DNA from: a bacterium
Lineage (GTDB): Bacteria; ARS69
Assembly (NCBI GenBank): GCA_025774865.1
Contig: JALGZO010000563.1
Location: 1-5,863 of the forward strand
Direction: 5' to 3'
Length of the DNA: 5,863 nucleotides
The notes under the pieces are model-generated. The model searched no databases and had not been told where the DNA came from. It was given only the letters and a program-made list of their open reading frames with translations. Both the position numbers and the translations under genes were made by a program. Positions 840 to 5,863 of the stretch are shown in pieces (position 1 is the first letter of the stretch; every line of letters starts with the position of its first letter).

Positions 840-2212
840 GCCCGTTCGCGACGGCACTCGGCCTCGCCCTCTTGCACTTTGTCTGGCAGGGTTTCTTTCT
901 GGGCGCGTTGATCGCCGGTACTCTGGCCGCGCTCCGGGAACGCCCGGCGTCCGTGCGCTACGTGGTTTGCGTTGGCGGCATGGCGCTGTTGTTCGCGGCG
1001 CCCGTCGCGACGACGCTTCTCATCCTGAGGGCGCCGCCCGGAGAGTGGGTCCTCCCGATACTTCACGGTACGCGGGTGGCTTCGAGCTTGGTGTCACCGC
1101 TCCTCCCGATTCTTCCCGTGCTGCCGATCGTGTGGGGCGCGGGTGTCATCGCGCTCCAGGTCCGGATGATCGTCGCCTGGATCCGCGCGGAAAGCCTCGG
1201 CCGGATCGGTACCCGCGCCGCATCAGCGCGCTGGCAGCGCGAGTTCGAAGATCTCGTGGCCCGGTTATCGGTCGATCGCCCGGTCCGTCTGCTCGAATCG
1301 TCGCGGGTGGTCGTGCCGGCGGTGGTGGGGTGGTTGCGGCCGGTCGTGCTCGTACCCGCGTCTCTCGCCACCGGGCTGAGCCCCGGCGAGATCCGCGGGC
1401 TGTTGGCGCACGAGCTCGCTCACGTGCGGCGCCACGACTACGCGGTGAATGTGGCCCAGTGTCTGTTCGAATCGCTTCTCTTCTTCCACCCCGTGACCTG
1501 GTGGCTCTCCGGCCGTCTGCGGGCGGAACGCGAGTTCTGCTGCGACGACGTGGCCCTCACGGTCGGTGGCGGGGCGCTCGCCTACGCGCGAACGCTCTCT
1601 TCCCTGGAAGAGCTTCGGGACCGGACCGCTCTTCCTGTCCTCTCCGCGAAAGGAGGAAGTTTGATGACGAGAATCACGCGTCTGCTCGGCGGGGGCCCGC
1701 ACGGCCACGGTCGGGCGGCCCTGGCCCTGGGCATCGTAGCCGTGACGGGGGGAATCACCCTCGGCGCGCTGATGGCCACGGGCTGTTTCCAGGGCGAATC
1801 GGTGGCCGCGGTGGAAAGCGAAACCCTGGTCGGGCCCGGCTCCGAGCAGGCCGCTGCGGCGTTCGCGCCGGAGCCTGCCGACGTGAGCCAGGTCCTCGCG
1901 ACCCTGGACGCGGCGGTCGCCGCGGGCCGGCTGTCCGCCGAGGCCGCCGCGACGATCCGCACGAAGATCGAAAGCGGCGAGGCGAAGTTCTTCTCCGCGT
2001 CCTACACGTCAGCCGGTGGGTGCGGGACCGCGGCGAACTGCGCGCCCGCGGATTGCGAGCCTTCGGCGTGCGTCGAGTTGACGGGTTCGGGCGAAGGCGA
2101 GCCGATGTGCGTCGTGATCGAGTGTGACGAATCGGCGTGTATGCCGACCAGTGCCGTGGGTAGCGACGCTCCAATCGTCGAGGCCTTCGAGGTCGTCGAG
2201 CTGGGCAAGTAG
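836..2212 (+). CDS. M56-family (BlaR1/MecR1-like) membrane zinc metalloprotease with Cys-rich tail
   Basis: This is a 458-residue integral membrane protease and the presumed signal transducer for the BlaI-like repressor encoded just upstream. Hydrophobic segments lie at about 8-29, 40-64, 88-113 and 293-312. The zincin domain sits in the cytoplasmic loop before the last helix. It has HELAH at 192-196 (LLAHELAHVRRHDY) and the downstream EREFCCDD at 231-238, where E233 is the likely third zinc ligand. The start is set by AAGGAG at 822-827, 8 nt before ATG, and by the ATGA overlap with the repressor gene. Classical BlaR1 ends in a penicillin-binding domain of about 260 residues. Here the outer tail is only about 140 residues (318-458), with no SxxK or KTG pattern seen, and carries seven cysteines at 396, 402, 407, 412, 425, 430 and 435. 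The signal sensed is therefore unknown and probably not a beta-lactam by the known mechanism. C317 sits in ATGC right after the last helix, a weak lipobox. An internal ribosome binding site and ATG occur at 1651-1666. Confidence 0.93.
   Translation: MSPFATALGLALLHFVWQGFFLGALIAGTLAALRERPASVRYVVCVGGMALLFAAPVATTLLILRAPPGEWVLPILHGTRVASSLVSPLLPILPVLPIVWGAGVIALQVRMIVAWIRAESLGRIGTRAASARWQREFEDLVARLSVDRPVRLLESSRVVVPAVVGWLRPVVLVPASLATGLSPGEIRGLLAHELAHVRRHDYAVNVAQCLFESLLFFHPVTWWLSGRLRAEREFCCDDVALTVGGGALAYARTLSSLEELRDRTALPVLSAKGGSLMTRITRLLGGGPHGHGRAALALGIVAVTGGITLGALMATGCFQGESVAAVESETLVGPGSEQAAAAFAPEPADVSQVLATLDAAVAAGRLSAEAAATIRTKIESGEAKFFSASYTSAGGCGTAANCAPADCEPSACVELTGSGEGEPMCVVIECDESACMPTSAVGSDAPIVEAFEVVELGK
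1651..1666 (+). promoter_or_regulatory. Internal ribosome binding site and in-frame ATG within the M56 gene
   Basis: AGGAGG (1651-1656) stands 7 nt before an in-frame ATG (1664-1666, codon 277 of the M56 gene). This is a better Shine-Dalgarno than those of the annotated starts in this window. Initiation here would give a 182-residue protein with a basic N-terminus, one hydrophobic segment ending LMATGC, and the whole Cys-rich tail, resembling a small exported or lipid-anchored protein. The codons involved encode Lys-Gly-Gly-Ser, and a Gly-rich linker before a basic stretch is common in M56 proteins, so the match may be coding coincidence. Confidence 0.4.
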
Positions 2213-2414: not shown

Positions 2415-2564
2415 GCAGCGGCGAACAACAGGACCTCGCTCAATTCCCTCCGAGGTCACGCCGCCAACGAAACCCTCCTTCCCTTCGCTGTTGTACGGGT
2501 CGGAACGTACGGCCGTGCCGTGCAGGTTCCAGCCTGTATTCGTGCGGCGGAGAAGAACCCATTC

Positions 2565-3839
2565 ATGTCAGTTTTGGAATCCACGGAATCGGCTGGATTC
2601 GGCCGCTTCGGGCTCGACGAAGCCCTCATGCGCGGTATCGACGCCGCCGGCTTCGAGACCCCGTGGCCAATCCAGTTTGAAGCCATTCCCGCCGGCCTTG
2701 ACGGTCGCGACGTGCTGGGCCTGGCCCAGACCGGAACCGGCAAGACGGCGGCCTTTGCCCTGCCGCTGCTCGAGCGCCTGCTCGAGGTGCGCGGCAAGGG
2801 CCCTCGGGCCCTGGTGCTCGCCCCCACGCGGGAGCTGGCCACTCAGATCGCCGACGAGATCCGCATGCTCTCCAAGTTCACCCCCCTGAGAGTGGCCACC
2901 GTCTACGGTGGCGTCTCGATGCGAAGCCAGGTCAACGCGATGCGCCAGCGCCCGGAGATCGTCGTGGGCTGTCCGGGTCGAGTGCTCGACCTGCTCCAGC
3001 AGGGTGTGCTTCGCCTCGGCCAGATCGATGCCCTCGTGCTCGACGAAGCTGACCACATGTTCGACATGGGCTTCCTGAAAGATGTCCGGAGGATCCTCGC
3101 GGCGCTGCCGGCCCGCCGACAGAACCTGCTCTTCTCGGCGACGATGCCCAAGGAGATTCGCCGGCTGGCCGACGAACTGTTGATGGACCCGCAGGTGGTC
3201 GAGCTGGCCGATGCCACGCCGGCCGCCACGATCGACCACGCGCTGTATTCGGTCGCGGAGGGACGCAAGCGCGACTTGCTCGAGCACGTACTCACACGCG
3301 GGGACTGCGACTCGGCCATCGTCTTCATGCGCACTAAGCACCGAGCCCGCCGCCTGGCGGACCAGCTGAGCAAGGCGGGACATCGGGCCGTCGGCCTCCA
3401 GGGAAACATGTCCCAGGGCCAGCGCGATCGGGCCATGAGCGGCTTCCGCTCGCGTCGCTATGACATTCTGGTGGCAACGGATATCGCGGCGCGCGGCATC
3501 GACGTGAGCGGCGTCTCCCACGTGATCAACTTCGACGTGCCGAACACTCCGGAGGCCTACACCCATCGCATCGGACGCACCGGCCGCGCGGAGCGCGAGG
3601 GCGTGGCCTGCACGTTCGTCACGGGCAGTGATCGCGGCTGGGTGCTCGCCACCGAACGGATGATCGGCGCTTCGATTCCGCGCCGGAGGGTCGAGGGCTT
3701 CGAGTCCGACGCCAGCGAGGAGCCTGAGCGCCGTCGGTCCCAGCGGGGCAATGCGATCCCTGCGCGAGTCGGCGCACAGCGACAGAGCAGGCGGCGCCAC
3801 TCGTCCGGACGCAGGCGCGGCCGAAGGCGCGCCGGGTAG
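2565..3839 (+). CDS. DEAD-box ATP-dependent RNA helicase, RhlE-like
   Basis: This 424-residue ATP-dependent RNA helicase remodels RNA duplexes and ribonucleoproteins in the cytoplasm, as in ribosome assembly, mRNA decay or cold adaptation. All core motifs are present in order: Q motif (F15, GFETPWPIQ ending at Q37), I AQTGTGKT (54-61), Ia PTRELATQ (87-94), Ib CPGR (136-139), II DEAD (160-163), III SAT (191-193), IV IVFMRTK, V ATDIAARGID (304-313) and VI HRIGRTGR (334-341). The final 52 residues (373-424) contain 18 Arg, many in RRR triplets, forming the unstructured basic RNA-binding tail seen in RhlE-type proteins. I chose ATG 2565 because homology begins just after it. GGAG at 2549-2552 is 12 nt upstream, slightly far. 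The frame is open further upstream, but without helicase-like sequence. Motif Ib has Cys136 where Thr is usual. It is probably transcribed alone. Confidence 0.96.
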   Translation: MSVLESTESAGFGRFGLDEALMRGIDAAGFETPWPIQFEAIPAGLDGRDVLGLAQTGTGKTAAFALPLLERLLEVRGKGPRALVLAPTRELATQIADEIRMLSKFTPLRVATVYGGVSMRSQVNAMRQRPEIVVGCPGRVLDLLQQGVLRLGQIDALVLDEADHMFDMGFLKDVRRILAALPARRQNLLFSATMPKEIRRLADELLMDPQVVELADATPAATIDHALYSVAEGRKRDLLEHVLTRGDCDSAIVFMRTKHRARRLADQLSKAGHRAVGLQGNMSQGQRDRAMSGFRSRRYDILVATDIAARGIDVSGVSHVINFDVPNTPEAYTHRIGRTGRAEREGVACTFVTGSDRGWVLATERMIGASIPRRRVEGFESDASEEPERRRSQRGNAIPARVGAQRQSRRRHSSGRRRGRRRAG

Positions 3840-4396: not shown

Positions 4397-5863
4397 ATGC
4401 GACTGCTCCTGATCAACCCGAGCAACCCGGCTGTGAGCGTGGTCAAGAACAAGCAGAATCCGTGGAACAGGTATCGGGTTTGGAAACCGCTTGGTCTTCT
4501 GGTTCTGGCTGGGCAAACGCCTCCCGAGTGGGACATCACCGTGGTCGATGAGAACATCGGATTGCCGGATTACACGTCGATGCGCCCACCCGACGTGGTT
4601 GGGATCACCGCCTTTACGTCGCAGGTCACCCGCGCGTACGAGATCGCGGCCGAGTGGCGGGCCCGCGGCGTGCCGGTCGTCATGGGTGGCATCCACGCCA
4701 CAATGTGTTTGGACGAGGCGTGGGACCGAGTCGACGCGGTGGTGACAGGCGAAGCGGAGGGAATCTGGCCCCGGGTTCTCGAGGACGCTCAGCGGCGTAC
4801 CCTGAAGCCGCACTACATGGGTACCCACGTGGCCGCGGACAGCATTCCCATCGCTCGCCATGAATTGCTTCCGACCGGCTACTACTTTGGATCGATCCAG
4901 ACCGCGCGCGGCTGTCCCCTCAACTGCAGTTTCTGCAGCGTCACCACGTTTAGCGGAAGGTCGCTTCGGCGCCGTCCCATCGACAAGATCATCGAGGAGT
5001 TCAAGCAGATTCGGGAGAGCCATGTTTTTGTGGTGGACGACAACCTCATCGGCACTCGGAAAGACCAAATCGCCGGCACGAAGGATCTTTTCCGAGCCAT
5101 GATCCGCGCGGATCTCGGGAAGAAATGGATTTCCCAGGCAACGATCAACATGGCAGACGACGAAGAACTGCTTCAGCTCGCAGCGCAGGCCGGATGTGCG
5201 GGTGTTTTCGTTGGCTTCGAGTCGACGACCGCCGAGGGCCTAGCGGAGATTCACAAGAAGTTCAACATTCAGAAAGGTCGCGACTTCCGAGCCTCGGTCG
5301 GGAGAATACAGCGGCACGGCATCCCGGTGATGGGTTCCTTCATCATGGGACTGGATGTTGATAAGCCCGGCATCGGGCGGCAAATTGCCGAGACGGCGAG
5401 CCACTACGGTGTGGATTTCATCAACGTGCTATTCCTGACGCCGCTGCCCGGTACCTGCCTTTGGGAGCAAATGGAATCCGAGAATCGCATCGTCGCCAAC
5501 TCTTTCCCCGGAGACTGGCAGTACTATACATTGAGCTTCCCGGTGGGTCGTTACAAGCACCTGAGCCGAGCCGATAGCCTCCGAGAGATGGAATTGTGCA
5601 ACCGGGAATTCTATTCGTTGAAGCGCATCACGGGACGGTTCGCGCGAAACATCTGGAGTAGGCGCAAGCCCTTGGTGACGCTCGTCGGGAATCTTGCCAG
5701 CATGAACAATGCTCGGCTGAACCGGAAGGTGTACCGGGATTTCAATCTGGAGCACAGCGACGCCCGCTTTGAGGCGATGGTGCCGCCGACCGACGACAAT
5801 CTGCACGTCCTTGCGCCGTCGGAAGGCTCTCGCAAGCATGGGGTCGCCCGACGGCCGGCCATT
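4397..5863 (+). CDS. B12-binding domain radical SAM protein (3' end beyond window)
   Basis: The frame gives 489 codons with no stop before the window edge. It encodes a cytoplasmic cobalamin-binding radical SAM enzyme of the COG1032 type (BchE, methyltransferase and hopanoid-methylase relatives). These use a 4Fe-4S cluster and S-adenosylmethionine to make a radical that methylates or rearranges a substrate. The N-terminal cobalamin-binding Rossmann domain covers about 1-135 (MRLLLINPSNP, LVLAGQTPPEWDITVVDEN, VVMGGIHAT at 94-102, VVTGEAEG at 115-122). The radical SAM barrel follows with C173-x3-C177-x2-C180 (RGCPLNCSFC), VVDDN (212-216), GFES (273-276) and TPLPGT (348-353). A helical C-terminal region of over 100 residues follows. 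GGGAGG (4387-4392) is 4 nt before ATG, and homology begins exactly there, although the frame is open upstream. Substrate and pathway are not identifiable without downstream neighbours. More A/T-ending codons than in the helicase hint at a different history. Confidence 0.93.
   Translation, partial: MRLLLINPSNPAVSVVKNKQNPWNRYRVWKPLGLLVLAGQTPPEWDITVVDENIGLPDYTSMRPPDVVGITAFTSQVTRAYEIAAEWRARGVPVVMGGIHATMCLDEAWDRVDAVVTGEAEGIWPRVLEDAQRRTLKPHYMGTHVAADSIPIARHELLPTGYYFGSIQTARGCPLNCSFCSVTTFSGRSLRRRPIDKIIEEFKQIRESHVFVVDDNLIGTRKDQIAGTKDLFRAMIRADLGKKWISQATINMADDEELLQLAAQAGCAGVFVGFESTTAEGLAEIHKKFNIQKGRDFRASVGRIQRHGIPVMGSFIMGLDVDKPGIGRQIAETASHYGVDFINVLFLTPLPGTCLWEQMESENRIVANSFPGDWQYYTLSFPVGRYKHLSRADSLREMELCNREFYSLKRITGRFARNIWSRRKPLVTLVGNLASMNNARLNRKVYRDFNLEHSDARFEAMVPPTDDNLHVLAPSEGSRKHGVARRPAI

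Follow-up and report, generated by a model that had tools for sequence, protein, structure and literature searches.

To our knowledge, work on BlaR1 has dealt almost entirely with its role as a beta-lactam receptor, and few M56-BlaI pairs outside Firmicutes have an assigned signal. Operators of the TACA/TGTA type are a feature of BlaI and MecI. Among other systems, the RsrA-type redox-sensing zinc anti-sigma factors work in a way comparable to the one proposed below, in that thiol chemistry is proposed to control the release of a transcription regulator, but they are unrelated in sequence to the pair described here, are cytoplasmic, and involve no proteolysis of a repressor. In BlaR1, both the N- and the C-terminus lie outside the membrane, as does the sensor, and the protease, which faces the cytoplasm, cleaves BlaI (PMC9834060).

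Our analysis concerned a stretch of bacterial DNA of 5,863 nucleotides (the window, by which the whole stretch is meant). Like BlaR1/MecR1 with BlaI/MecI, it carries a gene pair made up of a four-TM M56 gluzincin, with HExxH and ExxxD motifs and accessory D, Y and R residues, and a BlaI-type winged-helix repressor, with dyad operators ahead of the operon. Unlike BlaR1 and MecR1, the protease has no class-D beta-lactamase-like sensor and ends instead in some 140 aa that form an acidic tail rich in Cys; unlike those of BlaI and MecI, the operator is ACGAAnnnnTTCGT and not TACA/TGTA. Nor does any beta-lactamase or PBP gene adjoin the pair or lie at the operators found, in contrast to the BlaR1/BlaI system. 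The architecture of this BlaI-M56 pair with a Cys-rich tail is well supported.

Repressor and protease genes

The upstream gene (447–839, + strand) encodes a BlaI/Penicillinase_R-type repressor of 130 aa (PF03965, 87.9 bits; cut-off 22.6). It is overlapped at its stop codon by the start of the downstream gene (836–2212, + strand), which encodes an M56 (BlaR1-type) membrane zinc metallopeptidase antirepressor of 458 aa. A Pfam profile search matched Peptidase_M56 (PF05569) over residues 92–263 of this protein with 89.6 bits (cut-off 31). Active-site residues were assigned by the motif definitions given for BlaR1 in the S. aureus structure paper (H201ExxH, E242xxxD, D210, Y261 and R294; PMC9834060), and H192ELAH196, E233FCCD237 and the accessory residues D201, Y250 and R279 were all found. 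An AlphaFold2 model built with 33 sequences had a core with pLDDT >90. When this model was used for a fold search against the PDB, the five best matches were all BlaR1, with S. aureus BlaR1 first. The last membrane helix, TM4, was placed at residues 293–311 (1712–1768, + strand) by the AlphaFold2 helix and a hydrophobicity scan. By analogy with BlaR1, the tail that follows it is probably outside and the protease inside.

Searches with Pfam and NCBIfam revealed no penicillin-binding sensor (transpeptidase or beta-lactamase domain) in the M56 protein, and the NF000326 score was 85 bits (cut-off 400). The original prediction of an M56/BlaR1-type protease paired with a BlaI-like repressor is borne out by the PF05569 score, the BlaR1 fold match and the adjoining BlaI-type gene, and these profile searches agree with its claim that the outer tail has no penicillin-binding domain.

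Five genomes made up the comparison set for the phylum, and one other genome (G002) has an orthologue (L033). The M56 cores of the two proteins are identical at 167 of 312 aligned positions (54%), and their repressors at 88 of 127, the winged-helix segment TTVLKLMQIM being the same in both. The genome from which the window comes (G000) has a second BlaI-M56 pair (L001; G000:C596), the tail of which is charged, helical and free of Cys. Elsewhere in the window, a gene for a DEAD-box RNA helicase (2544–3839), which begins some 330 bp past the end of the M56 gene, is probably unrelated, and a gene for a B12-binding radical SAM protein (4397–5863) is cut by the contig end.

Operators ahead of the operon

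Positions 365–401 contain two copies of ACGAAnnnnTTCGT, arranged as a direct repeat of 21 bp from start to start. The upstream operator is ACGAAACTCTTCGT (366–379). The downstream one is the perfect dyad ACGAAACTTTTCGT (387–400; TACGAAA-CT-TTTCGTA), and the same dyad precedes the BlaI-M56 operon of the orthologue, as it does in most of the Phycisphaerales loci that we looked at. The dyads between 330 and 450 were all of the ACGAA/TTCGT form, and none of the TACA/TGTA type was found there. As a pair, the two sites are unique in their own genome, and a tandem ACGAAnnnnTTCGT pair, 21–22 bp apart, lies ahead of the repressor-protease operon in the genomes of both orthologues.

The strict site ACGAAANNTTTCGT occurred at two places in the genome of the window and at two in G002, while its reversed control gave zero. 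It was also present before the BlaI-M56 pair in most of the Phycisphaerales loci fetched, usually as the sole site of the genome. The operator ACGAAAnnTTTCGT is common to BlaI-M56 operons of the phylum and of Phycisphaerales (L039, L041, L042, L044, L046, L047, L048, L051, L052 and L067), and its being mostly the sole site per genome suggests that these BlaI-M56 pairs are strictly autoregulatory. The operator motif had been proposed at 365–401, and it has fared better than was stated, being conserved across phyla. The second strict sites in the genome of the window (on contig C206) and in G158 were treated as chance occurrences, as they are inside coding sequence. Another second strict site, in the Phycisphaerales genome G148 (L102 1501–1514, G148:C7), has no convincing gene start adjoining it.

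The cysteine-rich tail

The protein has cysteines at residues 45, 209, 235, 236, 317, 396, 402, 407, 412, 425, 430 and 435. The last seven make up a Cys-rich region (2021–2140, + strand) bounded by the codons of C396 and C435, within which C402/407/412 and C425/430/435 each have the form C-x4-C-x4-C. The positions of the Cys codons confirm the two equally spaced triplets and C396 as first described. The chemistry of the tail is one of thiols and acids, with a net charge of −17, no His and very few aromatics. Since its GC3 (0.86) resembles that of the M56 part (0.82) and the alignment with the orthologue extends to the very C-terminus, the frame of the tail is the coding one.

Cys makes up 0.85% of the local coding sequence, so that seven Cys in 40 aa are far beyond chance; simulation put the probability of such a cluster at about 1e-5 for a Cys content of 0.8–1.2%. 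Among 56 background ORFs, only one other protein, a ferredoxin, had at least seven Cys within 45 aa. Two equal-step triplets arose from seven Cys in 40 positions in 0.14% of simulations, a figure that rose to 1.1% when a repeat of any triplet spacing was counted, but this test was chosen after the data had been seen, and the regular spacing is less secure than the Cys enrichment. The two 24-nt triplet units are identical at 15 of 24 bases, and a repeat finder run on the window did not report them as a repeat. The case for a duplication of the units is therefore weak.

Profile searches of the tail against Pfam and NCBIfam gave no family match, in agreement with the original prediction, which recognised no named domain in this small, acidic, Cys-rich tail. 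The tail of the orthologue likewise matched no Pfam family. No match to the window tail was found in plasmid records by tblastn, and no relative was found among viral contigs. When the five phylum genomes were searched with the tail, it matched itself only (all else E >0.03). We found no description of an M56 protein with a Cys-rich sensor in the literature searched. In the AlphaFold2 model, a helical hairpin is predicted between TM4 and the Cys region (residues 350–362/368–380; 1883–1975, + strand) with pLDDT of about 83, while the Cys region itself has no confident fold, its pLDDT being at or below about 50 with short strands predicted near the Cys. A separate model of just the tail, built from two sequences, had a mean pLDDT of 43 and gave no fold.

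C317, which the original prediction did not mention, is at the outer end of TM4 (codon 1784–1786, + strand) and is the last residue ahead of the tail. Its context is lipobox-like in both orthologues (MATGC in the window, FGSGC in L033). In BlaR1, signal peptidase cleaves a little past TM4, at Gly331 (PMC9834060), and by analogy lipoprotein signal peptidase could act at C317. By a PROSITE-like rule, a lipobox-like Cys in or at the end of TM4 was seen in 10 of 66 M56 proteins, most clearly in L050, L010, L017, L028 and L011; such a residue is possibly a lipid anchor or a cut site of the outer domain.

Distribution of the tail among M56 proteins

We compared 101 non-redundant M56 ORFs. In 98 of them the tail had no more than three Cys per 45 aa, and the Cys-rich tail was confined to the window protein and L033. 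A third candidate, L025, with seven Cys, was rejected, as its ORF crosses a masked N stretch into Cys-rich sequence. Three paralogues examined from the genomes of the window and of L033 (L021, L022 and L030) have no tail Cys.

The tails of the two orthologues have seven (window) and eight (L033) Cys, no His, and a net charge of −17 each. Outside the core, identity falls to 21 of 62 positions in the linker plus hairpin and 13 of 41 in the Cys region (about 30% over the tail). The Cys of L033 follow the pattern CC-x8-C-x6-C ... CC-x7-C-x6-C. The original prediction of a duplicated C-x4-C-x4-C module is not supported, given this different spacing, the limited likeness of the units and the silence of the repeat finder. 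Loss of either the cysteines or their spacing in orthologues had been named as evidence against it; the spacing is indeed lost in L033, but the cysteines are kept. The conserved trait is thus the Cys-rich acidic tail and not a duplicated module. As only two members were found in the sets searched, the tail evolves fast, with no conserved Cys pattern.

The M56 proteins of Phycisphaerales (L039–L051, L067) are 31–39% identical to the window protein in the core, have a BlaI-type neighbour and mostly share the ACGAAAnnTTTCGT operator, but they end in long helical repeats that are poor in Cys. We considered whether the hairpin of the window is homologous to these repeats and rejected the idea, as a profile of the repeats gave no match to the window tail. 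The protein of 836–2212 is a genuine variant on the BlaR1/BlaI theme, restricted to its lineage, and its putative sensor region is of a new sort.

Operator sites elsewhere in the genomes

A search for tandem sites in 20 genomes found a close ACGAA pair at the operon of the window, at that of the orthologue, at G002:C16:1360–1392, and at the own operons of other genomes. The few remaining CGAA/TTCG pairs lacked the flanking A and T, and the one in G002 sits in an ORF. In G000 and G002, every looser single site that was checked fell within a long ORF. Beyond the BlaI-M56 operons, the tandem operator was found at one promoter only in the genomes of the two orthologues, that of a molybdoenzyme operon in G002.

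There, the pair has the 21-bp geometry of the window and is about 90 bp ahead of the point where an operon of three genes plausibly starts with TTG (L106 1359–6058 with the tandem operator; G002:C16). The genes encode a DsrO/TtrB/ArrB-like 4Fe-4S protein, an NrfD membrane subunit and a molybdopterin oxidoreductase. The best PDB match of the catalytic subunit was the Thermus polysulfide/thiosulfate reductase 2vpw (E 1.2e-61), with ArrA second. In NCBIfam, the PhsA model came top, yet below its cut-off, and ArrA-type arsenate reductase also matched. We refer to this operon as Psr/Phs-like. The genome of the window (93% complete, 785 contigs) had no close copy of it; the nearest homologues are 34% (catalytic subunit) and 31% (NrfD) identical, and no operator was found near these. 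Beside the G002 operator, a stretch on the minus strand (L106 738–1070), apparently truncated or frameshifted, has Cys motifs that by eye are like those at the C-terminus of reductive dehalogenase-like Fe-S proteins.

Discussion

We consider it nearly an even prospect that the pair is an autoregulated BlaI-M56 relay in which the tail takes a thiol-directed signal, the protease cleaves the repressor, and targets are derepressed. The BlaI-type repressor would dimerise on the two tandem ACGAAnnnnTTCGT operators before its own operon. In the M56 protein, the gluzincin site would face the cytoplasm, and the helical hairpin and the acidic, His-free, Cys-rich tail would be outside, past TM4. A thiol-directed signal, we infer, would alter the tail by disulfide oxidation or by polysulfide or persulfide chemistry, soft-metal binding being less likely, and the change would pass via TM4 to the protease. 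Once activated, the protease would cut the repressor, so that its own operon would be derepressed, together with target genes where these are present; the putative target in the genome of the orthologue is the Psr/Phs-like molybdopterin oxidoreductase operon. Several findings speak against this reading: the tail, seen in two members, evolves fast and varies in its Cys pattern, the genome of the window has no close copy of the Psr/Phs-like operon, the catalytic subunit of that operon also matches ArrA, and AlphaFold2 gives the Cys region no fold.

That the tail is a sensor, whether of metal, thiol oxidation or disulfide stress, is a plausible hypothesis with indirect support from the operator at the Psr/Phs-like operon of G002. 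The nature of this target suggests as the signal an electron acceptor that reacts with thiols, be it a respiratory one of the sulfur type or another. Together with the chemistry of the tail, it points to a signal directed at thiols, for which reactive sulfur or a different respiratory oxidant would be candidates. Protein disulfides can arise from polysulfides without oxygen (PMC11921322), so thiol sensing would be possible in anoxic habitats as well.

The main alternative, a serious one though unlikely, is a soft-metal sensor: outside the membrane, Cu(I), Zn(II), As(III), Hg(II) or a similar metal would bind to the tail and thereby switch on the M56 protease. This would parallel the metal homeostasis that CopY controls, except that the metal site would be in the protease and not in the repressor. 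The repressor shares the BlaI-like fold of the CopY/TcrY copper repressors and matches their profile below threshold (TIGR02698, 39.1 bits; cut-off 122). Its single Cys, C26 (P0002), however, leaves it without the C-terminal Cys metal hook of CopY/TcrY, the Cys being in the protease instead. The two Cys clusters and the many Asp and Glu residues of the tail would suit a metal site, but the tail of the window has no His and no CxC or CxxC knuckles, and the number and spacing of its Cys differ between the orthologues, which is unusual for a site of fixed geometry. The kinship of the target operon in G002 to ArrA arsenate reductase also favours a metal signal, whereas no metal transporter or metallochaperone was found in the window or at any operator detected.

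Small disulfide-rich extracytoplasmic domains are common, and the Cys may be locked in constitutive disulfides for the stability of a small outer domain, the true ligand being another, such as a peptidoglycan fragment, a peptide or an envelope protein. The orthologue keeps many Cys without their spacing, as expected if stability alone were selected, and the short strands predicted around the Cys are consistent with this. We nevertheless regard such a structural role as quite improbable, given the odd Cys count of the window (7, or 8 with C317) against 8 (9 with the corresponding Cys) in the orthologue, the near absence from the Cys region of aromatics that could build a binding site, and the lack of any fold for this region in the AlphaFold2 models. 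Very improbable, in our view, is a low-complexity, fast-evolving and non-sensory extension, perhaps released or lipid-anchored at C317, with the signal read at EL1 or the TM region: the low identity of the tail relative to the core, its pLDDT <50, the lipobox-like C317 of both orthologues and the cleavage of BlaR1 itself past TM4 (PMC9834060) fit it, but drift alone would not preserve the Cys enrichment, the absence of His and the net charge in both orthologues, and paralogues from the same two genomes lack tail Cys.

Returning to the thiol-directed relay, its fullest form is that the antibiotic sensor has given way to a fast-evolving Cys-rich tail, which responds to reactive sulfur or to some other respiratory electron acceptor that reacts with thiols, and that a Psr/Phs-type molybdoenzyme is thereby derepressed via a new tandem operator. 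We offer this as a conjecture that is doubtful as a whole.

The lineage carrying this protein is barely sampled. The operator, being common to two phyla, gives a handle for mapping the regulons of BlaI-M56 pairs. With a short sensor of obvious chemistry, a defined operator and a candidate target operon in one genome, the case described here makes the signal of such a pair testable.
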